Assembly: GCA_005879535.1 (NCBI GenBank)
Contig: VBKI01000091.1
Coordinates: forward strand, 72,710-136,709
Length of the DNA stretch: 64,000 nt
Reading direction: 5' to 3'
From: Deltaproteobacteria bacterium
GTDB lineage: Bacteria; Myxococcota; Myxococcia; Myxococcales; 40CM-4-68-19
The translations under genes and the position numbers were made by a program. Shown here piece by piece: positions 6,672-21,517 of this stretch. The first letter of the stretch is position 1; each line of letters starts with the position of its first letter. The notes beneath the pieces are model-generated. The model saw nothing but the letters and a program-made list of their open reading frames with translations, did not search any database and was not told the DNA's origin.

Positions 6672-8234
6672 ATGGCGCAGCTCTTCGTCGACGCTGAGAA
6701 GATCGCCCGCGCGCGCGAGCTCGCCCGCAGCGCCGCGATGGGTGTGCAGGCGTTCATCGGTCGCCACACCACGGTCTCCATCGAGCGCACCGTCCTGCGG
6801 CTGCTCGGGATCTCCGGCACCGGTGCCCGCGGTGCTCCGCTGGCGAATCTGATGGTCGACCGCCTGCGCGACGCCCGCGTGTTGCAACGGGGCGCGGCGT
6901 ACTGGCTGGGCCGCGCCCTGCGCGCGTCGCCGGGGAAGGATCCGCTGCAGGCGATCGAGCGAATCGCGGCGCATCCCGAGAAGCTGCCACCGCTTCCCGC
7001 CGCCGAGGACCAGCAGCTCCGCGAGGAGATGCGCGCGGAGACGCGCGCCGCGGTCCGGGAGCTGCAAGCGCGCATCGACGAGCGCAAGCAGCGCAAGCGC
7101 GACCTTCGCGTCGGATCGTTCGATGGCGCGCCCTGGAAGTACGTCATCGTCGCCACCGGCAATATCCACGACGACGTGGAGCAGGCGAAAGCCGCCGCCG
7201 AGCAGGGCGCCGACGTGATCGCCGTCATCCGCAGCACGGCGCAGTCGCTGCTCGACTATGTTCCGCACGGCGCCACCACCGAGGGATTCGGCGGCACCTA
7301 CGCGACCCAGGAGAACTTCCGCATCATGCGCGAGGCGCTCGACGAGGAGTCGAAGCGCCTCGGGCGCTACGTCCACCTGACGAACTACAGCTCCGGTCTC
7401 TGCATGCCGGAGATCGCCTTCATGGCCGCGTACGAGCGTCTGGACATGCTGCTCAACGACGCCATGTACGGCATCCTCTTCCGCGACATCAACATGCAGC
7501 GGACGTTCTGCGACCAGTATTTCTCCCGCCGCATCTGCGCCTTCGCGGAGATCATCATCAACACCGGCGAGGACAACTACATCACCACCGCCGACGCGGA
7601 CGAGGCGGCGCACACCGTGATCGCCTCGCAGCTGATCAACGAGACCTTCGCCCGCCTCGCCGGCATGAAGGAGGAACTGATCGGCTTCGGCCATTCCTTC
7701 GAGATCGATCCGGCCCGCGAGGACACGCTCTTGCGCGAGTTCGCGATGGCGATGATGGTCCGGGAGCTCTTCCCTCGCAGTCCGATCAAGTACATGCCTC
7801 CCACCAAGCACAAGGAGGGCGACATCTTCTTCAGCCACGCCTACGACGTGATGTCCGATCTGGTCGCCATCGCCACCGGGCAGCGCATCCAGCTCCTGGG
7901 CATGATGACGGAAGCGATGCACAATCCCTTCCTCATGGATCGCTACGTGGCGCTCAAGTCCGCCTCGTACGTGTACCGGGGCGCGCGGCACCTGGGCGAC
8001 GAAATCCGTTTCCAGCCCGACGGGATCGTCGCCCGGCGGCAGCGCGAGGTGTTCGACCAGGCCCTCGCGCTGCTCGAGGAGGTTGCCAAGGACGGGATGA
8101 TGGCTGCCATCGGCAAGGCGCGGTTCGGCGACACCGCGCGCACACCCGAAGGAGGGAAGGGGCTCGACGGAGTGGTGGAGAAGGCCCCCGACTACTTCAA
8201 CCCCTTCCTCGAGATCCTCGAGGGCGCGGCGTGA
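6672..8234 (+). CDS. kamD: beta-lysine/D-lysine 5,6-aminomutase, alpha subunit
   Basis: This 520-residue protein matches the large (alpha) subunit of lysine 5,6-aminomutase along its length: [20 protein letters not shown] at residues 16-35, [12 protein letters not shown] near 57, [21 protein letters not shown] near 160, [13 protein letters not shown] near 236, and [18 protein letters not shown] near 371. The TIM-barrel subunit carries the substrate and radical chemistry. With KamE, PLP and adenosylcobalamin it moves the terminal amino group of beta-lysine to C5, giving 3,5-diaminohexanoate. The start ATG has no obvious Shine-Dalgarno sequence. Its stop overlaps the kamE GTG by 4 nt. No cobalamin riboswitch was recognised upstream. 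Confidence 0.93.
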
Positions 8235-9064
8235 GCACCGAGAAGGAAAAGCAGCTCATCCGGCCGTACGGCGATCGCAAGGACGACGGCGTCATCCAGC
8301 TCTCCTTCGTCCTGCCCGTGCCCAGCAGCGAGAAGGCGAAGGAAGCCGCGGCGACGGTGGCGAAGAAGCTGGGCCTCTCCCACGTGCTCGTCGCCTGCAT
8401 GGAGAAAGCGGGCGAGGGCTACAGCTTCTTCGTCGTGTACGGCCGAACGCACATGCAGCTCGACTACAATTCCATCGAGGTGCCCGAGGTCGTGCACCGC
8501 AAGCACGGCTACGACGAGCTGAACGAGGTCATCCGCCGCGACCTCGGCCGCCGCATCGTGGTGGTCGGCGCCTGCATCGGGACCGATTCGCACACCACGG
8601 GCATCGACGCGATCATGAACATGAAGGGTTTCGCCGGCGACTACGGGCTCGAGCGCTATCCGATGTTCCGCGCCGTCAACCTCGGGTCGCAGGTGGACCC
8701 GGAGCACCTGGTCCAGCGCGCCAAGGAGGAAAACGCCGACGCCGTCCTGGTCAGCAAGGTCGTCACCCAGCGGGACGTGCACAAGGAGGACGCCCGGGCA
8801 CTGATCGACGCCGCGAAGCAGCAGGGCGTGTTCGAGAAGACCATCTTCCTCTTCGGTGGCCCGCGGGTCGATCACAAGACTGCCCTGGAGCTGGGGTTCG
8901 ACGCCGGGTTCGGTCCCGGCACCCGGCCCAGCGACGTCGCGAATTACATTTATTATCGTCTACTGGAAAGAATGGGCCGCCCGCCACCACCACAGAAGAC
9001 GGCCCATGGTACGCAGGACGCCACGGTCCCGGCGACCGGCGAGAAGCTGGGAGAGACGCTGTGA
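8231..9064 (+). CDS. kamE: lysine 5,6-aminomutase, beta (cobalamin/PLP) subunit
   Basis: This 277-residue partner of KamD has a short N-terminal dimerisation part and then a cobalamin-binding Rossmann domain. The B12 signature DSHTTG falls at residues 119-124, so His121 is the expected lower axial cobalt ligand. [14 protein letters not shown] follows, in which Lys132 is the expected PLP Schiff-base lysine. The 11-residue His-Lys spacing equals that of the characterised clostridial enzyme (His133/Lys144, from memory). It starts at GTG with a 4-nt overlap with kamD and ends with a 4-nt overlap with kal, so subunit synthesis is coupled. A low-complexity linker follows the domain near the C-terminus. 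Confidence 0.93.
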
Positions 9065-9444
9065 AGGTGACGCTCAGGGTCAGGCTCTCCGCGCACGACG
9101 CGCACTACGGTGGCGGGTTGGTCGATGGCGCGCGCGTGCTCGGCCTCTTCGGCGACGCCGGCACCGAGCTGCTCATCCGCAACGACGGAGATGAAGGCCT
9201 CTTCCGCGCGTACGAGTCGGTCGAATTCCTCGCCCCGCTGCACGCCGGCGATTTCGTCGAGGTGGACGCGGAGCTCGTCTCGGTGGGAAAGACCAGCCGC
9301 AAGGTGCGGTTCGAGGCGCGCAAGTACATCTCGCCCCGGCCGGATGTTTCCGACTCCGCCGCCGACCTGCTGCAGGAACCGGTGGTGGTCTGCCGCGCGG
9401 TGGGAACCTGCGTGATCCCGGCGGCAAAGCAGAGGCGCAAGTGA
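9061..9444 (+). CDS. kal: 3-aminobutyryl-CoA ammonia lyase
   Basis: This 127-residue hotdog-fold protein has the Kal pattern [20 protein letters not shown] early and [20 protein letters not shown] in the centre. Kal removes ammonia from 3-aminobutyryl-CoA to give crotonyl-CoA, the last dedicated step of 3,5-diaminohexanoate breakdown. Length and position between kamE and kce fit known lysine-fermentation clusters. The GTG start overlaps kamE by 4 nt, and its stop overlaps the kce GTG by 4 nt. On sequence alone it could be another short thioesterase-like hotdog protein. The neighbourhood makes Kal the strong choice. Confidence 0.9.
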
Positions 9445-10271
9445 CTCCTGCGATCATCACCGCCGCGATCTGCGGAGCGGAGACCACGCGCGAGATGACG
9501 CCGTACCTGCCGATCACCGCCGACGAGCTGGCGGAAGAAGCGGCCCGGTGCCAGCAGGCGGGCGCCTCCGTCATCCACCTCCACGTCCGGCACGACGACG
9601 GTACGCCGACGCAGGATCGCGCCCTGTTCCAGAAGGCGCTCGATGCCATCCGCCGCCGGACCGACGTGATAGTCCAGACCAGCACTGGCGGCGCGGTGGG
9701 CATGAGCGCCGACGAGCGGGCGCAGCCGCTCGAGTGCGCTCCGCCGCCGGACATGGCGACGCTGAACGCCGGGTCGCTCAACTTCGGCGACGACGTCTTC
9801 CTCAATCCATTTCCGCTGGTGCGTGACTTCGCCGGCCGCATGCGCGCCAGACGAATTGCTTACGAGCTGGAGTGCTACGACGTCGGTCACGTCGAGGCCT
9901 GCCTGCGCCTGGCCGAAGAGGGCGTGATCGATCTGCCGGCCCATTTCGACTTCGTGATGGGCGTCCGCGGAGGGATCCAGGCGAGCGAGGACAACCTGAC
10001 GTTCCTGGTCATGAAGCTGCCGCGCGGCTGTACATTCAATGTCGCGGGAATCGGGCGCCATCAGCTTCCGATGGCGGAGCTGTCGCTGCGGATGGGCGGG
10101 CACGCTCGCTGCGGGCTCGAGGACAACGTCTATCTGAGCAAGGGCGTGCTGGCGAAGGGCAGCTTCGAGCTCGTCGCGAAGATCGCGGAAATGGCGCGCG
10201 CCAGCGGCCGGGAGGTCGCCACGCCGGTGCAGGCGCGCGAGATCCTGCGCATTCCCGGGAGGCGGCAATGA
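9441..10271 (+). CDS. kce: 3-keto-5-aminohexanoate cleavage enzyme (BKACE family)
   Basis: This 276-residue TIM barrel of the BKACE (DUF849) family has [11 protein letters not shown] at the N-terminus, [15 protein letters not shown] near residue 50 with the paired zinc-binding His residues, [10 protein letters not shown] near 80, and [10 protein letters not shown] near 170. Kce condenses 3-keto-5-aminohexanoate with acetyl-CoA to give acetoacetate and 3-aminobutyryl-CoA, the substrate of Kal. BKACE enzymes vary in beta-keto acid specificity, but the adjacent kamDE and kal make Kce by far the best reading. It starts at GTG (4-nt overlap with kal). Its TGA overlaps the ATG of the next small gene. 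Confidence 0.92.
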
Positions 10272-13657: not shown

Positions 13658-13719
13658 GAGGAGTCCGTATCACGGAGCATTTGGAAAAACCGGAATTCCC
13701 TGGACTGGAGCACCGTCGG

Positions 13720-14148
13720 ATGGCCGCCCCGCAAGCCGCCCCTGACCTTCCTGAAAAAGGAGCAGAAGCGGATCCGCTTCTGGGGCGCGTTCTCAACGAT
13801 CGGTACACGATCGTCTCCGCCGTTGGACATGGCGGAATGGGGCGGGTTTACAAGGCATTGCAGGCGCCGCTCGACCGGGTCGTCGCCCTCAAGGTGCTCG
13901 GCGCCGGCCACGACCGCGATCCCAACTTCTACAAGCGCTTCTTCCTCGAGGCGAGCGTCACGGCGAAGCTGACGCATCCCAATACCATCACGCTCTACGA
14001 TTACGGGCGTACCGAGGACGGCGTCTTCTTCATCGCCATGGAGTACCTGAACGGCCGGACGCTCTCGCAGGCGATGCAGGCGGACGGACCGCTTGCCCAG
14101 GAGCGCGTGATCCACTCATCCACCGCGATCTCAAGCCGGCCAACGTGA
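13720..14148 (+). pseudogene. serine/threonine protein kinase, N-terminal fragment (broken gene, part 1)
   Basis: This reading frame contains the N-lobe of a eukaryotic-type kinase: glycine loop VGHGGMGRVYKAL, the VALKV lysine, helix-C FFLEASVTAKLTHPN, and hinge MEYLNGRTLSQAMQ. It then leaves the kinase frame at ERVIH (about 14101-14115) and stops at 14146-14148. The catalytic-loop motif HRDLKPAN is present at 14121-14144 but in another frame. The helix that normally links hinge and catalytic loop, about 20 residues, is absent. The break is therefore a non-triplet deletion, not a single-base slip. I use ATG 13720 (GGAG nine bases upstream); TTG 13681 is also possible. As drawn, the product would be an inactive N-lobe. 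Confidence 0.75.
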
Positions 14149-15314
14149 TGCTGCTCACGCAGCAGGACGATCACGACTTCGTCAAGGTGCTGGACTTCGG
14201 CCTGGTGAAGTTCTTCTCCGGCGAGACCACGGAAAGCGACATCACCAACGCCGGGACCTTCATGGGGTCGCCGCACTACATCGCCCCGGAACAGGCGCGC
14301 AACCGGAGCCCCGATCAGCGCTGCGACATCTATTCGCTGGGGGTGCTGCTCTATCACATGCTCACCGGGCGCGTGCCGTTCACGGCCACGGCGCCGGTCG
14401 ACATCATCCTCAAGCATCTGCACGACGCGCCGGTGCCGCCCGCGGAGGCGCGCCCAGATCTCAAAATCGTCCCGGAGCTGCAGGAAGTCGTGCTGCGCTG
14501 CATGGCCAAGGACCGCGACGGGCGGTTCCAGTCCATGGACGAGCTCCTCGGGCAGCTCAAGGCGGTGCGCTCTCGATTGACGGGCGCGACGCCGCAGACT
14601 TCGACGCCGGAGCCGCGAGCGAACGCGTCCAGCGGAGCGATCGCGCAGACGCCTCCAACGCCGCCGCCCGGCCTGCGCACGCCAAGCCAACCGATGAGCG
14701 CTCTGCGGGCGACGCCGCCGCGTGGGATGTCGCGGCCGCCGCCGCCGCCGCCGGCGGACGCGTTCGCGGAGCAGGCGACGCCGATCAGGCGGCCGACAAC
14801 CGCACTTGCAGCATGGCGTCAGGTGCTTTCGCCGACCATGGTCGCCGCGCTGAAAGTCGGCGTCGCGCCGGCCTTGATTCTCGTCGCGGGGATCGGCGCG
14901 GCGGCTTACGTGTTGCGAGCCCCCCTCCACGTTCCGGTCGTGCACGTGCCGCCTCCGTCGCTGCAGCCGCGGCCGTCCGTTGCCGCTCCGGCGGCTTCGC
15001 CAGTGGTAACGATTCCGCCGGCGCCTCCGGCGCCGTCGGTGACCTTCGTGACCGTCACCAGCGCGCCTTCCGGCGCCGAGGTACGGGACACGAATGGCGA
15101 CCTTCTCGGGAGGACCCCGCTCCATCTGCGCGTGCCCTCGGGGCGGATCCTTCAGATCACGGTGCGGCGGGACGGATACCGGCCGGTATCGCTCAGCCGC
15201 AAGGTGGAAGGCGAGCACGCGGCAGTGAGCGTGACGATGAGGAGCGCGAAGTCGGGCGCGCCCGAGTCGAGGCCACAGAAGAGATCGACCGGATACAAGG
15301 ACGACCCGTACTAA
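14118..15314 (+). pseudogene. serine/threonine protein kinase, C-lobe with TM and PEGA domain (broken gene, part 2)
   Basis: Starting from IHRDLKPANVML, this frame holds the catalytic loop, DFG motif (VLDFGLVK), activation segment and APE motif (GSPHYIAPEQA) of the same kinase. A Pro-rich linker follows, with a single membrane segment (APALILVAGIGAAAYVL, about 14870-14920). An extracytoplasmic Pro/Ala spacer and a C-terminal PEGA domain (FVTVTSAPSGAEVRDTNG to VSLSRKVEGEHAAVS) complete it. Translation could restart at GTG 14145 or ATG 14148. Such a product would lack the ATP-binding lobe. The lobe is otherwise intact, suggesting recent breakage or an assembly error. It is followed 18 nt later by the TonB receptor gene. 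Confidence 0.72.
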
Positions 15315-15332: not shown

Positions 15333-17966
15333 ATGAACAATACGAACAGCGCGACCCCATTGGCCGCGCGCGCAAACGTGTGCGCTGCGCTTGCGCTCGT
15401 TGCCCTCCTCGCCCCCGCTACGGCGCTCGCCGATGCGCGGTCGGATGCGAAGCGGCACTTTCGCGACGGCATGTCCCTGATCGCGGCGGGGCAGGTGGAG
15501 CGCGGGATCGCCGAGCTGAAACAGGCCTACGCCATCAAGCCTCACCCCGATGTGCTGTACGACATCGCCAAGGCATACGTCGATCTGGGAAACATCTCCG
15601 AAGCCCTCAACTACTTCCGGCACTACGTCGCGACGGATCCCGCCGACAAGGAGCAGGTGATGAGCGTGATGCAGCGGCTGCAGGCCGCCATCGCGCCGGC
15701 GGCTCCGCCGCCACCGCAGAACATCGACGTGCAGAAGCTGCTCGCGCAGCTGCAAGCGCTGATCGACCAGCAGCGGGGTCACCAGCAGCCGCCGTCGGCT
15801 CCAGCGCCCGCGGCCAGGCCGGCAGTCGCCAAAAAGGCGGAACCGGCAAGGGCCGAGCCGGAAGAGGACATGTTCGAGGCGGAGACCATTTCCGCGAAGA
15901 CCCGGGCCACTGCGCGCGAGATCGCCGCCGAGCTGTCCGCGCACGAGAGCAGCGCGGAGGACATCTTCGAGGAGCAGGTGGTGACGGCATCCGCCCGATC
16001 CAGCTCGGAGACGAAGTCTCCGGCCTCGCTCACCGTCATCACCGGCGACGAGATCCGCATGAGCGGCGCGGCCACCGTGCCCGAGATCCTGCGTCGCGTT
16101 CCCGGGATCGACATCGCCGAGATGAACCCCAGCGACACGAACGTCTCGATCCGCGGCTTCAACCGGCGCCTCGCCAACAAGGTGCTGGTGCTGGTCGACG
16201 GCCGTTCGGTCTACCAGGACTTCCTCGGCGGCACGTTCTGGCCGCTGATCGACGTCAACATCCAGGACATCGATCGCATCGAGGTGATTCGCGGACCCGG
16301 CTCCGCCCTCTACGGCGCCAATGCTTTCTCCGGCGTCGTCAACATCATCACCCGCACCGGCGACGAGATCGCCGGCGCACGGGCGGCGGTGCAGGCGGGC
16401 GACCACCGGACCTTCCAGGGCGCCATCACCACGGGCGGCAAGACCGGCAAGCTCACCTACAAGACGTCGTTCGCGTACGAGCGCGCGGACAAGTGGACGC
16501 GCGACTTCACCGACGGGCGCGTCGATCTCTCTTCGCAGTTCCCACAACCGGACCGTAGCCGCGAGATCCAGCGCGGCGAAGTGGCGGCGAGCTACGACTT
16601 CGGCAAGACGCAGGTGAGCGGCGGGGGCGGCTTCGACAACGTGGCCATGCAGGTGGTTCCGCTCGGCGCGCTGCGGACGTTCGGCGCCACCGGTCAGAGC
16701 GGATTCGTGCGGGCGGAGGTGGGAAGCGGCCCGACGAAGGTGAAGGCATTCTGGAACGCGCTGCGCCTCACCACCGGGCCTGAGTACTGGCCGGACGGAA
16801 TCCTCTCCCTGAAGAGCAGCGTGCGCAGCGACGTGGTCGATCTCACGACGATCACCGGGTTCGACTTCAAGGCCTACGGCACGCACCACCTGAACATTGG
16901 CGCCGGCTACCGGTTCAAGAGCCTGCAGTGGGGATATCTCGCCAGCCGGGCTGACGGAAGCGCGTACCAGGAGCACCACTTCAACGTCTTCCTCCAGGAG
17001 GAATGGGAGATCACCCGCAAGCTCTCGCTGGTCCTCTCGTACCGGATGGACCGCAACCCCCTTCTCGCCCAGCAGAGCGTCACCGCGGGCGGCCTCGTGC
17101 ACTCGCCGCGCGGAACCGTCCTCTACGAGGTGAAGCCGGATCAGGTGCTCCGCTTCACCCTCGGGACGGCGTTCCGCGCCCCCACCTTCCTCGAGAGCTA
17201 CGTCGACCTGTTTGCGCCCATTCCCGACCAGCCGGCCATGGGCGTGCGGTTCCAGGGCAGCACGACGCTGCGGCCGGAGCAGATGCTGCAGGCGGAGCTC
17301 GGATATCGCGGCCGCTTCGGCACCTTCCAGCCCGACGTGGTGATCTACGCCGAGCGCGTGCAGAACCTGATCACCGACGGAGCCCTGCGCCTCCCCGCGA
17401 ACTCCTCGGAAGCGGTCGATCCCGTCACCGGGCAATACGTCGCCGGCTACACCGGATTCGAGAACGAGCCTGGCAGCTACTTCGGGGCGGGCGCCGAAGC
17501 CGGCGGCAAGTGGTCTCCGGCCGACGGCGTCGATCTCGGTTTGAACTACTCGTACGAGCGGATGTTCGCCTGCAGCGTGACCAGCACCGGCGGCTGCACC
17601 GACAGCATCTCCGCGGCGAATCAGGTGTCCGCCGCTCTCGCCAACACCGCCCGACACAAGCTGAACGTCACGGCCACCTGGCGGACCAAAACGAACTTCG
17701 ACCTCGGGCTCGGCGTCCATTTCGTCTCTGCCGCGACCTGGTTCGAGAAGTCGTTCGACGTGAACAGCCAGGGCGGCGTGATCTTCACCCCCTACGCGGT
17801 CCCGGCGCACACGATGGTGAACGGACGCGTCGGGTACCGATGGATCAAGGACAAGCTCGAGACCGGCGTGGCGTTCTACAACCTGCTCGGCGACGAGCAG
17901 CGCGAGCACCCCTTCGGCAACCAGATCGGGCGCCGCGTGCTCTTCACCGCGTCGGGTGCGTTCTGA
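15333..17966 (+). CDS. TonB-dependent outer-membrane receptor with N-terminal TPR region
   Basis: This 877-residue protein has a cleavable signal (about residues 1-34, ending LAPATALA). A TPR-like region follows (about 37-110: HFRDGMSLIAAGQVERGIAELKQAY split over two helices). Next is a Pro/Ala/Gln linker, then a TonB-box-like EEQVVTASA near 213. The plug domain (SLTVITGDEIRMSGAATVPE, VSIRGFNRRLANKVLVLVDG, IEVIRGPGSALYGANAFSG) and a C-terminal 22-strand-type barrel ending in Phe complete it. It imports a substrate across the outer membrane using TonB energy; the substrate is unknown. The TPR fused before the TonB box is atypical for classic siderophore receptors. The start has GAGGGGGA upstream. 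The next gene begins on its stop codon. Confidence 0.92.
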   Translation: MNNTNSATPLAARANVCAALALVALLAPATALADARSDAKRHFRDGMSLIAAGQVERGIAELKQAYAIKPHPDVLYDIAKAYVDLGNISEALNYFRHYVATDPADKEQVMSVMQRLQAAIAPAAPPPPQNIDVQKLLAQLQALIDQQRGHQQPPSAPAPAARPAVAKKAEPARAEPEEDMFEAETISAKTRATAREIAAELSAHESSAEDIFEEQVVTASARSSSETKSPASLTVITGDEIRMSGAATVPEILRRVPGIDIAEMNPSDTNVSIRGFNRRLANKVLVLVDGRSVYQDFLGGTFWPLIDVNIQDIDRIEVIRGPGSALYGANAFSGVVNIITRTGDEIAGARAAVQAGDHRTFQGAITTGGKTGKLTYKTSFAYERADKWTRDFTDGRVDLSSQFPQPDRSREIQRGEVAASYDFGKTQVSGGGGFDNVAMQVVPLGALRTFGATGQSGFVRAEVGSGPTKVKAFWNALRLTTGPEYWPDGILSLKSSVRSDVVDLTTITGFDFKAYGTHHLNIGAGYRFKSLQWGYLASRADGSAYQEHHFNVFLQEEWEITRKLSLVLSYRMDRNPLLAQQSVTAGGLVHSPRGTVLYEVKPDQVLRFTLGTAFRAPTFLESYVDLFAPIPDQPAMGVRFQGSTTLRPEQMLQAELGYRGRFGTFQPDVVIYAERVQNLITDGALRLPANSSEAVDPVTGQYVAGYTGFENEPGSYFGAGAEAGGKWSPADGVDLGLNYSYERMFACSVTSTGGCTDSISAANQVSAALANTARHKLNVTATWRTKTNFDLGLGVHFVSAATWFEKSFDVNSQGGVIFTPYAVPAHTMVNGRVGYRWIKDKLETGVAFYNLLGDEQREHPFGNQIGRRVLFTASGAF

Positions 17967-20900
17967 ACGGCGCTGCCGGGCGCATCCTTGCGGCCGCGGC
18001 GATGGGAACTCTGGCGTGCGGAAAGCCGGGCGTCGCGCCCGGCCTCGATCAGTACACCTGCGACGGCGGCCCATGTGCCGCGCCGGGCGTCATCCGAGGG
18101 CAGGTGGTCTACGACGGTCCGGCGCGAGGCGACGCCATCCTCCTGCTCTTCGATATCCGGGCGCTGCCGCCGCCCGAGGGGAATGGCACGGGCGCAGTCG
18201 CGGTAGCCCGGGTCAAGGAGTCGGCGCTGTTCCAGCGGACCGGCGACGCAGGCGCAGGCCCGTTCTCCGCTCCTTTCACGTTCACGCAGGTTCCCTCCGG
18301 GCGGAGCTATCGGATCCGCGCGTTCATCGATGCGACACGCGAGTTCGTTCCGGTCTTCGACTACGCGCAGCAGCCGCGCGCCGGAGATCCGGCAGGAACC
18401 TCGGGCGACATCGCCGTGGCCCCGGCCCAGACCGTGAGCGGCATCGAGGTCGCCCTGACGCAGACCGTTCGATACGATCCGCCGTCGTTCGAGCTCGCAG
18501 GCGGCTCGCGGACGCTGGACCAGGACATGGACCAGCCCTATCGGCTCAAGCTCCGCATCGCGCGCCTGTCGGTCCAGGGCGCAAGGTTCGACGGGGCGCA
18601 CTTCGCGCTCGAGCTGGACCGCGACGCGCAAGGCAACCGGCGCAGCACGTTCAACGACGGCCTCGACGACGTCTTTCCGCGCGTGTTCCTCCGCCAGATC
18701 GCCGGCCTCGACCAGGCAATCGTGCCTTGCCGGACGATCTCCACGCCCGTGCTGCCGGCGCTCGTGAACCTCGCCCCCGACGCGCCTCCCATCGTTCAGG
18801 ATTCGATCGACGTCCTCGTCGAGCCTTTAGCGTTCCACGCCGCCGATCTTTCGCCGCTGCCGCGCATTCCGGCCGGCAAGTACCAGGTGGTGGTCGTCCA
18901 GCGCAGCGGCCAGATGTGGACGGTCCCCAATGATCTCGGCGACGAAGCAAACGCTGCGACGCCGTACTACGCGCCGTCGCAGGGCGAGAGCATCGCGTTC
19001 GCGTCGGGCGCGCCTTTGCCGAACAGCGTCAGCGGCACCGTCGTGTGGGTCGGCGATCCGTCGATCAAGAGCGGCAACATCGTGGTGCAGGCGTACTTCG
19101 ACGATCCGTACGACCCGCCCCCTCCGGTCGGCGCCGCGTCGCCCGTGCGCGTGCAGATCATCCCCGCGGCGGCGGTAATTCCGGACGCTCAAGGCTTCAG
19201 GGCGTCCTACCGCATCGGCGGCCTGCCGCAGGGAACCTACCTCGTACAGGCGCTGGACGACGTCGACGGAAACTTCTCGACGCTGTCGCTCCTGCGGACG
19301 CCCACGCGCGGCGACCTGGTCGGCGCCATCGTCGAGCCGTCGACGGCGAGGCCGGCCGCGATCGCAGTCAGCGGCGACGTCACGGGGGAGGACGTCAGTC
19401 TCGCGCTCCGGCTTCCCGGCGATCCGCCGGCGTTCGAGGTCGATGGAGCTGGCGCTGTGCAGATGCCCGCCGACCAGGTGACGCCGCTGCGCTTCGCCCT
19501 GCGCGCGAGACCGCTCTCGTTTCCGGCGGGGAAGGCGGCCGCGCCCCGGTTCGCCGTGCAACTCGTGCGGAACTCGGGCGGCGCGGCGGTGGACACCGAT
19601 CATGACGGGCTACCCGACGTGTGGCCCCGCGTGTTCCTCGTCCGGCTGGACCCTTCGGATCCTTCCGGCTTGACGCAATACGTGTCGCCCGACCTGCATA
19701 CGACGCGCAGGCAGATGATCCCTGCCGCCGTCGACCCGACTCCGTTCCTGCCCGCGCTGCAGCCGCAGCCGGGTGGAAATGCGCCGCCGGTGCTGACGGA
19801 CAAGCTCTCGATCGTCGTCCGCCCCGCGCTGTTCGATGCCGGAACGCCGGGCGCTCCGCCGCAACGGCTGCCCTCGCTGCAGCCCGGTACGTACCGGATC
19901 GTGCTCGTCGCGCAGACCGGACAGGCCTGGCAGGTCCCAAATGAAGCCGGCTCGGCGGCGCTCGATCCGGCCGTGGTGTGTCCCGAGTCAGCCTTGACCT
20001 GCAATCCCGCGACGGTGCAGACGCAGTCGCAGAGCCGCGCCTTCCGGGTCGGCTTGCCCTCCCACCCCGTCTACACGGGCGCGATCGCGGGATCGCTGAC
20101 CGCGAACGCGGGCTCGATCGCGTCGGCGTACGTGTTCGCATACGCGGCGTCGGCGCAGCCGCCGTTCGGAGCGCCCCTGTCGGCGGACTTCCACCTGGGA
20201 ACGGAATTCCAGGGCGGCAAGGTCAGCTACACGCTGCCGAATCTTCCCAGCGGCGATTACCTGGTGACGGCCGTCGTCGACACGAGGGGCGACTTCGCCC
20301 CCGCAGCGCCAGTGTTCGCGATGGCCCCTGGCGCGGGGAGCCTCGTCGCGGCTCCCGTGACCGTGACGGTCGGCGCCTCGGTCGTCAGCGAGGATCTTCT
20401 CGCAAGCGCGCCGATGCCGCCGCGGCCAAGCTTCCAGCTCGCGGCGGCGAGCGCCGGCGCCGACGTCGATCTGGCGTTCAACGGAGGAAGCCTCGCGACG
20501 ATGCAGATCCAGATCGCCGCGGTCCTCAGTGCCAAGGTCGCGGCGGTTCACCCTGACACGTCGGCCGGACTCGCCTTGGCCTGCGGTGCCAACGGAAGGC
20601 CGACGACGGCCTCCGTCTCGATCGAGCTGATCAAGCTCCTGAGCGATGCGACGGGGCTCGCTCCCGAGCTGGACGCGCAGGGAAAGGCAACCGTGCTTTC
20701 AGGCTTTCTCGACTCCACCGAATTCGCCTCCGTCAGCTGCACGCCGGGGAGCCTCTATCCCGCGTCGGGCCTGCTCACCATCGGCATTCCGACGGTGGCG
20801 TCGGCGAAGGTGGATCTGCTCGACCCGCGCGTCGCCCCGATCGCGGTTCCGCTCGCCGCCGGGCGTTACGCCTTGAGCGTCACCTCCGCGGCGGGCCAGA

Positions 20901-21022
20901 CCTGGCGCATCCCGAACCAGCTGCAGCCCGCGCTTCTCGACCCCGCAGCGCTGATCGCCACACCGGCCGCCGCGCAGATCGTCTTGCGGACGCAGCAGGC
21001 GGCAGTGAACGTAATGCCTTAG
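17963..21022 (+). CDS. large lipoprotein with three ~300-residue repeat modules, partner of the TonB receptor
   Basis: The 1019-residue product has no recognised family. No ATG, GTG or TTG lies at a sensible place. The best start is a CTG at 17963 that overlaps the receptor's TGA (CTGA) and gives a signal ending in MGTLAC, a fair lipobox. The mature part is three tandem modules (about residues 42-325, 353-660, 704-985). Each ends with a PxGxYxxxxxxxGQxWxxPN signature: GKYQVVVVQRSGQMWTVPND, GTYRIVLVAQTGQAWQVPNE and GRYALSVTSAAGQTWRIPNQ. Modules 1 and 2 also have DG(L)xDVxPRVFL. The DTDHDGLPD in module 2 looks calcium-binding. Carbohydrate- or peptide-like substrate capture for the receptor is plausible but unproven. 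Confidence 0.8.
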   Translation: MNGAAGRILAAAAMGTLACGKPGVAPGLDQYTCDGGPCAAPGVIRGQVVYDGPARGDAILLLFDIRALPPPEGNGTGAVAVARVKESALFQRTGDAGAGPFSAPFTFTQVPSGRSYRIRAFIDATREFVPVFDYAQQPRAGDPAGTSGDIAVAPAQTVSGIEVALTQTVRYDPPSFELAGGSRTLDQDMDQPYRLKLRIARLSVQGARFDGAHFALELDRDAQGNRRSTFNDGLDDVFPRVFLRQIAGLDQAIVPCRTISTPVLPALVNLAPDAPPIVQDSIDVLVEPLAFHAADLSPLPRIPAGKYQVVVVQRSGQMWTVPNDLGDEANAATPYYAPSQGESIAFASGAPLPNSVSGTVVWVGDPSIKSGNIVVQAYFDDPYDPPPPVGAASPVRVQIIPAAAVIPDAQGFRASYRIGGLPQGTYLVQALDDVDGNFSTLSLLRTPTRGDLVGAIVEPSTARPAAIAVSGDVTGEDVSLALRLPGDPPAFEVDGAGAVQMPADQVTPLRFALRARPLSFPAGKAAAPRFAVQLVRNSGGAAVDTDHDGLPDVWPRVFLVRLDPSDPSGLTQYVSPDLHTTRRQMIPAAVDPTPFLPALQPQPGGNAPPVLTDKLSIVVRPALFDAGTPGAPPQRLPSLQPGTYRIVLVAQTGQAWQVPNEAGSAALDPAVVCPESALTCNPATVQTQSQSRAFRVGLPSHPVYTGAIAGSLTANAGSIASAYVFAYAASAQPPFGAPLSADFHLGTEFQGGKVSYTLPNLPSGDYLVTAVVDTRGDFAPAAPVFAMAPGAGSLVAAPVTVTVGASVVSEDLLASAPMPPRPSFQLAAASAGADVDLAFNGGSLATMQIQIAAVLSAKVAAVHPDTSAGLALACGANGRPTTASVSIELIKLLSDATGLAPELDAQGKATVLSGFLDSTEFASVSCTPGSLYPASGLLTIGIPTVASAKVDLLDPRVAPIAVPLAAGRYALSVTSAAGQTWRIPNQLQPALLDPAALIATPAAAQIVLRTQQAAVNVMP

Positions 21023-21112: not shown

Positions 21113-21313
21113 TTATCCGCGCTGCGCTGCGGGGTCGTCGTCGAGCATGTCGTTCGGCGACGGCACCTTGCGGAGCTCACCTTTCGCGATCTTCCAGGCC
21201 TGCTGCACGACCCAGGAAAGCGAGCGGTCGAGCCGCTGCGCCTGCGACTGTATCTCGTTGAGCATCTCTTCGGGGAAGTACAGGCTCTGTTTGCGCGCGT
21301 CGTTGGCCGACAT
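21113..21313 (-). CDS. small basic ribbon-helix-helix-like protein, paralogue 2
   Basis: This 66-residue protein contains the core KQSLYFPEEMLNEIQSQAQ and a second helix RSLSWVVQQAWKIAK. It resembles the short Myxococcota family that I recall as TIGR04563: a short beta-like strand followed by two helices, as in ribbon-helix-helix DNA-binding proteins. Its ATG directly follows the TAG of the neighbouring paralogue, so the two are co-expressed. The C-terminal tail is acidic (MLDDDPAAQ). Function is unknown; DNA binding is inferred from the pattern only. Confidence 0.75.
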   Translation of the reverse strand: MSANDARKQSLYFPEEMLNEIQSQAQRLDRSLSWVVQQAWKIAKGELRKVPSPNDMLDDDPAAQRG

Positions 21314-21517
21314 CTATTCGCGCTCCTCGGACGGCCGCTCGCCGCCGATGACGTCGTTCACCGAGGGGAAGCGCATGATCTCGTTGCGGGCGATCTTCCA
21401 GGCCTGCTGAACGATCCACGAGAGCGAGCGGTCCTGCCGGTTCGCCTCCTCTTGGATCTCCCGCAGCATATCTTCGGGGAAGTAGAGGCTCTGCTTCCTC
21501 TTATCGGTACCTGCCAT
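21314..21517 (-). CDS. small basic ribbon-helix-helix-like protein, paralogue 1
   Basis: This 67-residue protein is close in sequence to the downstream paralogue: KQSLYFPEDMLREIQEEANR and RSLSWIVQQAWKIARNEI. I chose ATG 21517 because GCGGAGG lies six bases upstream and because it aligns with the start of the sibling. A longer frame to 21571 adds 18 residues without family similarity. The pair probably arose by tandem duplication and may form a heterodimer. The conserved RSLSWxVQQAWK block suggests a shared interface. Promoter elements must lie above 21518, and none was clear. Confidence 0.78.
   Translation of the reverse strand: MAGTDKRKQSLYFPEDMLREIQEEANRQDRSLSWIVQQAWKIARNEIMRFPSVNDVIGGERPSEERE

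Follow-up and report, generated by a model that had tools for sequence, protein, structure and literature searches.

The window analysed here is a stretch of 64,000 nucleotides from a Deltaproteobacteria bacterium (Myxococcota), and the genes described below lie on its forward strand unless stated otherwise. A TonB-dependent receptor of 877 residues is encoded at positions 15333..17966. Pfam searches identified in this protein (i) a TPR segment (TPR_19; residues 49-115, positions 15477..15677; 33.4 bits for a cut-off of 25), (ii) a Plug domain (residues 227-335, positions 16011..16337; 89.2 bits for a cut-off of 23.9) and (iii) a TonB_dep_Rec barrel (residues 409-851; 93.9 bits for a cut-off of 27), the last two of which place the protein among the TonB-dependent receptors. 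The TPR segment comes straight after the signal peptide, and a TonB-box-like sequence, EEQVVTA (residues 213-219, positions 15969..15989), recognised from the sequence and from relatives, comes after the TPR linker and before the plug. The TPR, which is kept in relatives and predicted to be periplasmic, precedes the TonB box as the extra domain of TonB-dependent transducers does; no STN domain was detected in the receptor by Pfam, and the TPR stands in its place. Comparison of the receptors of relatives gave mean column entropies of 0.86 bit for the TPR core and 0.34 bit for the TonB box, with 1.97 bit for the linker in between. In NCBIfam the receptor stayed under every named cut-off among the matches shown, including those for SusC/RagA (TIGR04056, 49.1 bits for a cut-off of 368.25) and for the B12 receptor BtuB (TIGR01779, 128 bits for a cut-off of 599.7). 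The presence of a TPR segment ahead of the plug agrees with the original prediction for this region.

The second gene (17963..21022) encodes a lipoprotein of 1019 residues with the lipobox LACG at 18011-18022. It had been proposed that a CTG overlapping the receptor stop codon is its only sensible start, and this assignment is well supported by sequence comparison: the CTG at 17963 overlaps the receptor TGA (CTGA), and the GC3 of the lipoprotein frame climbs at this point. Two sister species (loci L021 and L026) have the identical CTG at the identical place and contain no ATG, GTG or TTG from -45 to +120 bases around the receptor stop. Since the sister species share the CTG and most relatives of family f6 have an ATG at this position (ATGA overlap), the agreement goes beyond chance. 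The protein comprises three modules, at 18086..18931 (ending in GKYQVVVVQRSGQMWTVPN), 19025..19942 (ending in GTYRIVLVAQTGQAWQVPN) and 20081..20917 (ending in GRYALSVTSAAGQTWRIPN), all delimited by repeat comparison and an AlphaFold model. They are genuine repeats, as had been anticipated, with 25-30% identity to one another (pairwise E values from 9e-8 to 9e-34), although the signature at the module ends has a spacing of 8 and not 7 residues (GxYx8GQxWxxPN). The calcium-type sequence DTDHDGLPD noted earlier in module 2 is indeed present (19592-19618), and DxDxDG loops also occur in the same domain of single-module relatives. The number of modules is one in family f6, three in the genus of the window and four in two sister genera.

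The module could not be matched to a named domain, in line with what had been suspected. In Pfam the best scores of the window lipoprotein were for DUF2141 (E 0.0017) and CarboxypepD_reg (E 0.079), both under the cut-off, and nothing was retrieved from NCBIfam or by a PDB sequence search. A profile built from 42 lipoprotein sequences retrieved only designed Ig domains and a carbohydrate-binding protein, with E values of 0.02-0.1. The protein is not SusD-like either, as had been stated: neither Pfam nor NCBIfam returned a match of the window lipoprotein to the SusD/RagB family, and none of the 42 single-module relatives (0/42) matched it in Pfam. At the structural level, a single-module relative was modelled with confidence as two beta-sandwiches (mean pLDDT 83, pTM 0.77), and the AlphaFold model of the window lipoprotein (1001 residues) is a threefold run of such pairs, of modest confidence (pLDDT 66). 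When the single-module model was used for fold searches, beta-sandwich proteins came up as weak matches, the best with an E value of 5e-4. The fimbrial anchor Mfa2 and DUF3823 lipoproteins share this tandem beta-sandwich architecture, a likeness that is weak (best E 5e-4) and differs in its TM-scores of about 0.1-0.3, the lack of a sequence match and another gene context. The 1001-residue model retrieved generic strings of Ig-like domains only, with TM-scores below 0.25. Because these matches are weak or generic, assignment to a fold family was discarded and none is claimed for the lipoprotein, which is presumably exposed at the cell surface.

The original prediction did not include the gene located directly 5' of the receptor, which belongs to the same unit. 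In relatives, an intact Ser/Thr kinase gene of about 500-570 codons ends a few bases 5' of the receptor gene; in the nearest relative (L003) the intact product has 550 residues. In the window, the coding sequence is divided between two frames, 13681-14148 and 14145-15314. The first contains the N-terminal fragment, with a likely ATG start at 13720 (13720..14148; positions 1-102 of the Pfam Pkinase profile and alignment with L003). The second (14145..15314) carries the rest of the kinase domain (Pfam Pkinase 133-253), a predicted single transmembrane helix (14841..14915, from the sequence and relatives), a Pro-rich linker, a PEGA domain (Pfam PF08308, 302-364; 15048..15236; 27.0 bits for a cut-off of 20.8) that is predicted to be periplasmic, and a C-terminal tail, GYKDDPY, followed by the stop codon (15291..15314). 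The frame is broken at 14115..14116, where 49 bases are missing relative to L003 (blastn, query 465|466 against subject 416|466). A natural two-gene arrangement was considered and rejected, given the single intact gene of relatives and the 49 bases absent here. The gap is either a true mutation or an assembly error; as the window kinase reads as broken, the system may be off in this genome or the assembly may be wrong. A sister draft genome (G002, locus L107) likewise has kinase and receptor split over several frames.

The Pkinase scores of two relatives (L003 and L041) are 170 and 154 bits in Pfam, and the HRDLKPAN, DFGL and VALK motifs are all present in 49 of the 61 tail-bearing frames; most of the frames lacking the full set are cut by contig ends or frameshifts. 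In 26 of 29 relatives the kinase domain is followed by a single hydrophobic segment, some 135-173 residues from the C-terminus; the kinase domain would lie in the cytoplasm and the C-terminus in the periplasm. This organisation, a cytoplasmic kinase domain, one transmembrane helix and an extracytoplasmic C-terminal sensor, is that of the Hanks-type PknB/Stk1 kinases and of the myxobacterial PEGA kinases. However, the protein described here has PEGA and the GYKDDPY tail instead of PASTA domains, and its gene is locked in an operon with that of a TonB receptor.

We then used lipoprotein and tail-pattern scans of 145 genomes of the order, with co-occurrence counts tallied by hand and gene calls in relatives made by a GC3-based script. 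A lipoprotein match was found in 97 of the 145 genomes, with the receptor adjacent in the loci examined. The order kinase-receptor-lipoprotein, with overlapping or near-touching genes, recurs in families f1 and f6, as well as in individual genomes of f7, f8 and f10; most of the f6 genomes examined (9-13 Mb) have the operon. The tail was seen at this kinase in 61 genomes, and the receptor follows in every one (61/61); the triad is complete at 58 of these loci, two of the remaining ones being at a contig edge and one corresponding to the deletion in genome G003 described below. Genome by genome, 92 have both lipoprotein and tail, 46 have neither and 7 are mismatches, due to two variant tails (YKDNPYQ and GFKDDPYQ), two contig edges, one stand-alone copy of the lipoprotein and two damaged receptors. 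Neither of the two results that would have overturned the earlier proposal, a known domain of settled role in the modules or a pair not conserved together, was obtained, but the conserved unit comprises three genes and not two.

This result bears on the comparison with SusC/SusD (RagA/RagB), the importers of glycans and peptides, in which a TonB receptor gene is likewise followed by an overlapping lipoprotein gene. The locus had been likened to such pairs and proposed as a possible uptake system; a two-part system of this kind is not supported as it stands, since the conserved kinase-receptor-lipoprotein unit points to signalling, with or without uptake. An uptake machine in which the lipoprotein would serve as lid of the barrel or as ligand-capture partner, the TPR being incidental, appears improbable to us: the overlap of the two genes is conserved and beta-sandwich lipoproteins such as DUF3823 are among the weak fold matches, but the lipoprotein, a string of beta-sandwiches, falls outside the SusD families, the receptor scores far under the cut-off of the SusC model, and the kinase and its tail, part of the unit, are left unexplained.

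The tail of the kinase is nearly invariant, sometimes with one extra residue (Q, N or K). Its mean column entropy is 0.44 bit, compared to 0.60 bit for the kinase domain, 1.54 bit for the PEGA region and 1.57 bit for the residues just before the tail: conservation is higher in the tail than in the catalytic domain, and the sequence ahead of the tail is variable. Two scans of the collection located the pattern of the tail at a single site in almost all positive genomes of the order, and in ten genomes scanned with the relaxed pattern K[DE][DEN]P[YF]-stop, matches were found only at the receptor-linked kinase. A C-terminal peptide that is short, isolated and invariant, and that one specific protein carries, usually indicates a docking motif; the tail has these properties and is thus likely to be one. 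In a phylum-wide scan, one distant genome (G167) had two matches to the tail pattern, which were taken as chance. Separately, at locus L054 (2-397 and 545-2503, reverse strand), another PEGA kinase, ending in DLKEDPF, lies directly 5' of a TPR protein, perhaps a second pairing of a kinase tail with a TPR.

The tail might also be a site for a periplasmic C-terminal protease or a PDZ-type protein, the kinase being controlled by proteolysis and the signal of the receptor being indirect. C-terminal proteases (Prc, CtpA) do act in known transducer systems (PMC11637429). However, among the genes of the operon none for a protease was seen, and a general tag would be expected on other proteins as well, whereas the tail was found only at the receptor-linked kinase in the genomes scanned; we regard proteolytic control as very improbable.

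Two exceptions to the standard arrangement are informative. In one draft genome (G003, L106:1909-2589), a 226-residue open frame comprising a signal peptide, the TPR, the linker and the TonB box lies beside an intact full-length kinase with its tail. This receptor ends right after the TonB box and is followed by the next conserved gene: plug, barrel and lipoprotein are absent in the middle of the contig, with the flanking gene order kept. In family f6, locus L139 (5912-8746, reverse strand) encodes a second receptor of 944 residues in which TPR, PEGA stretches, plug and barrel are joined in one chain, and which therefore links TPR and PEGA independently. It is an example of a TPR-TonB receptor without a kinase neighbour, which counts against the signalling proposal made below. 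Taken together with the position and conservation of the TPR, these two cases favour a kinase-TPR module in which the two proteins may touch.

The same observations can be set against an uptake operon with its own regulator, in which receptor and lipoprotein would import a nutrient, the co-transcribed kinase would phosphorylate a cytoplasmic target without contacting the receptor, and the tail would bind another periplasmic protein or the cell wall. Neighbours in an operon are often related by pathway only, and BtuF/IsdE-like binding proteins are encoded near the operon at several f6 loci. However, G003 retains kinase and TPR after loss of the barrel, the tail follows the receptor operon genome by genome, and a TPR-PEGA fusion exists. 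We consider this explanation unlikely, if a more serious contender than the two discussed above.

We rather lean, with some reserve, towards a three-gene operon for signalling across the envelope, in which the receptor TPR would bind the periplasmic end of the kinase and the lipoprotein would be a surface accessory. The observations behind this proposal are the gene order and coupling, the domain order, the invariance of the tail, the co-occurrence and the retention of kinase and TPR in G003; from these we infer the topology, the physical contact, the direction of the signal, the ligand and the surface position of the lipoprotein. The outer-membrane receptor would bind an external ligand, aided by the modular surface lipoprotein, and its periplasmic TPR would dock on the periplasmic end of the single-pass Hanks-type Ser/Thr kinase, where its most likely hold is the conserved peptide GYKDDPY at the C-terminus. 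Once ligand is bound and TonB pulls on the receptor, this contact would be altered and, with it, the activity of the kinase in the cytoplasm, so that a signal would be relayed from outside through both membranes to the kinase, rather than a nutrient only being imported. In general terms, a kinase-receptor-lipoprotein unit argues for trans-envelope signalling, with or without uptake. The suggestion that the TPR may recruit a partner has thus gained a concrete candidate, the upstream kinase, their contact being probable at best. The TPR is the likely partner of the tail because it is encoded in the same operon, predicted to be periplasmic, conserved and in a transducer-like position. The TPR fold is nevertheless widespread, and the tail might bind a partner other than the receptor. 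The more specific idea that a TonB-driven receptor controls the cytoplasmic kinase through a TPR clamped on its periplasmic C-terminal peptide is accordingly put forward as a tentative one. The basic residues of TPR helix A1 are conserved and an asparagine of helix A2 is invariant in 50 aligned receptors; the window receptor, which is outside those 50, has D at this position, where most relatives have asparagine, and the clamp is speculative. Tail variants in DNPY showed no clear covariation with TPR residues.

The closest precedents are the FecA-type transducers, in which the domain ahead of the TonB box contacts an inner-membrane partner at its periplasmic end (PMC11637429). Like FecA-FecR-FecI, FoxA-FoxR and PupB-PupR, the system described here has a periplasmic N-terminal domain ahead of the TonB box, the plug and the barrel, genes that are co-located, and a partner that spans the inner membrane once and has a C-terminus predicted to be periplasmic. 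However, STN is replaced by a TPR, and the anti-sigma factor by a Ser/Thr kinase that has PEGA and ends in the short invariant tail; no gene for an ECF sigma factor was seen alongside, and a modular lipoprotein is added. Among the part of the neighbouring proteins that was scanned, none matched anti-sigma or sigma families. The unit would therefore resemble a TonB-dependent transducer but, with no STN domain and no anti-sigma/sigma pair, lie outside that family as defined, and it may represent a form of trans-envelope signalling unlike both SusCD and FecA-FecR. To our knowledge, and in the literature searched, known TonB-dependent signalling ends in an anti-sigma/sigma pair; no comparable operon was found in that literature, the scope of which left out most subscription journals. 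In Myxococcus xanthus, the TonB receptor MXAN4746 and the lipoprotein MXAN4747, which we do not equate with the operon genes, are both in an outer-membrane proteome (PMC3222651). If correct, our proposal would mean that a ligand at the outer membrane can act directly, through a eukaryotic-like kinase, on protein phosphorylation, and it would assign an input to one or more of the numerous orphan Ser/Thr kinases of myxobacteria. The proposal is easily tested, given a tail of seven residues and two small periplasmic domains.

Hints to the ligand are weak and mixed. Besides the BtuF/IsdE-like proteins, a ChaN-like gene lies near the operon in two f1 genomes; a search around the operon for a cobalamin riboswitch was negative. 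Near the operon, at 6672-10271, the window encodes both subunits (alpha and beta) of D-lysine 5,6-aminomutase together with a hotdog thioesterase and a beta-keto acid cleavage enzyme, apparently a B12-dependent lysine degradation cluster. A stand-alone paralogue of the single-module lipoprotein is found at five loci (L045, L047, L052, L053 and L120). Three of these (L045, L052 and L053) also encode, a few kb from the paralogue, a different TonB receptor and, after it, a 5'-nucleotidase-C-like lipoprotein, in a region whose gene order is partly common to the window (aminomutase cluster, TilS), and L052 and L053 have ChaN-like genes near the paralogue. Tandem small proteins of 66 and 67 residues, which look like the ribbon-helix-helix type, are encoded on the reverse strand of the window (21113-21313 and 21314-21517) and are kept between the operon and TilS in relatives. 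At one f6 locus (L041:11222-13399), a single receiver-domain protein is encoded 3' of the operon and, beyond it on the other strand, a Ferric_reduct and molybdopterin oxidoreductase pair that resembles MsrPQ.
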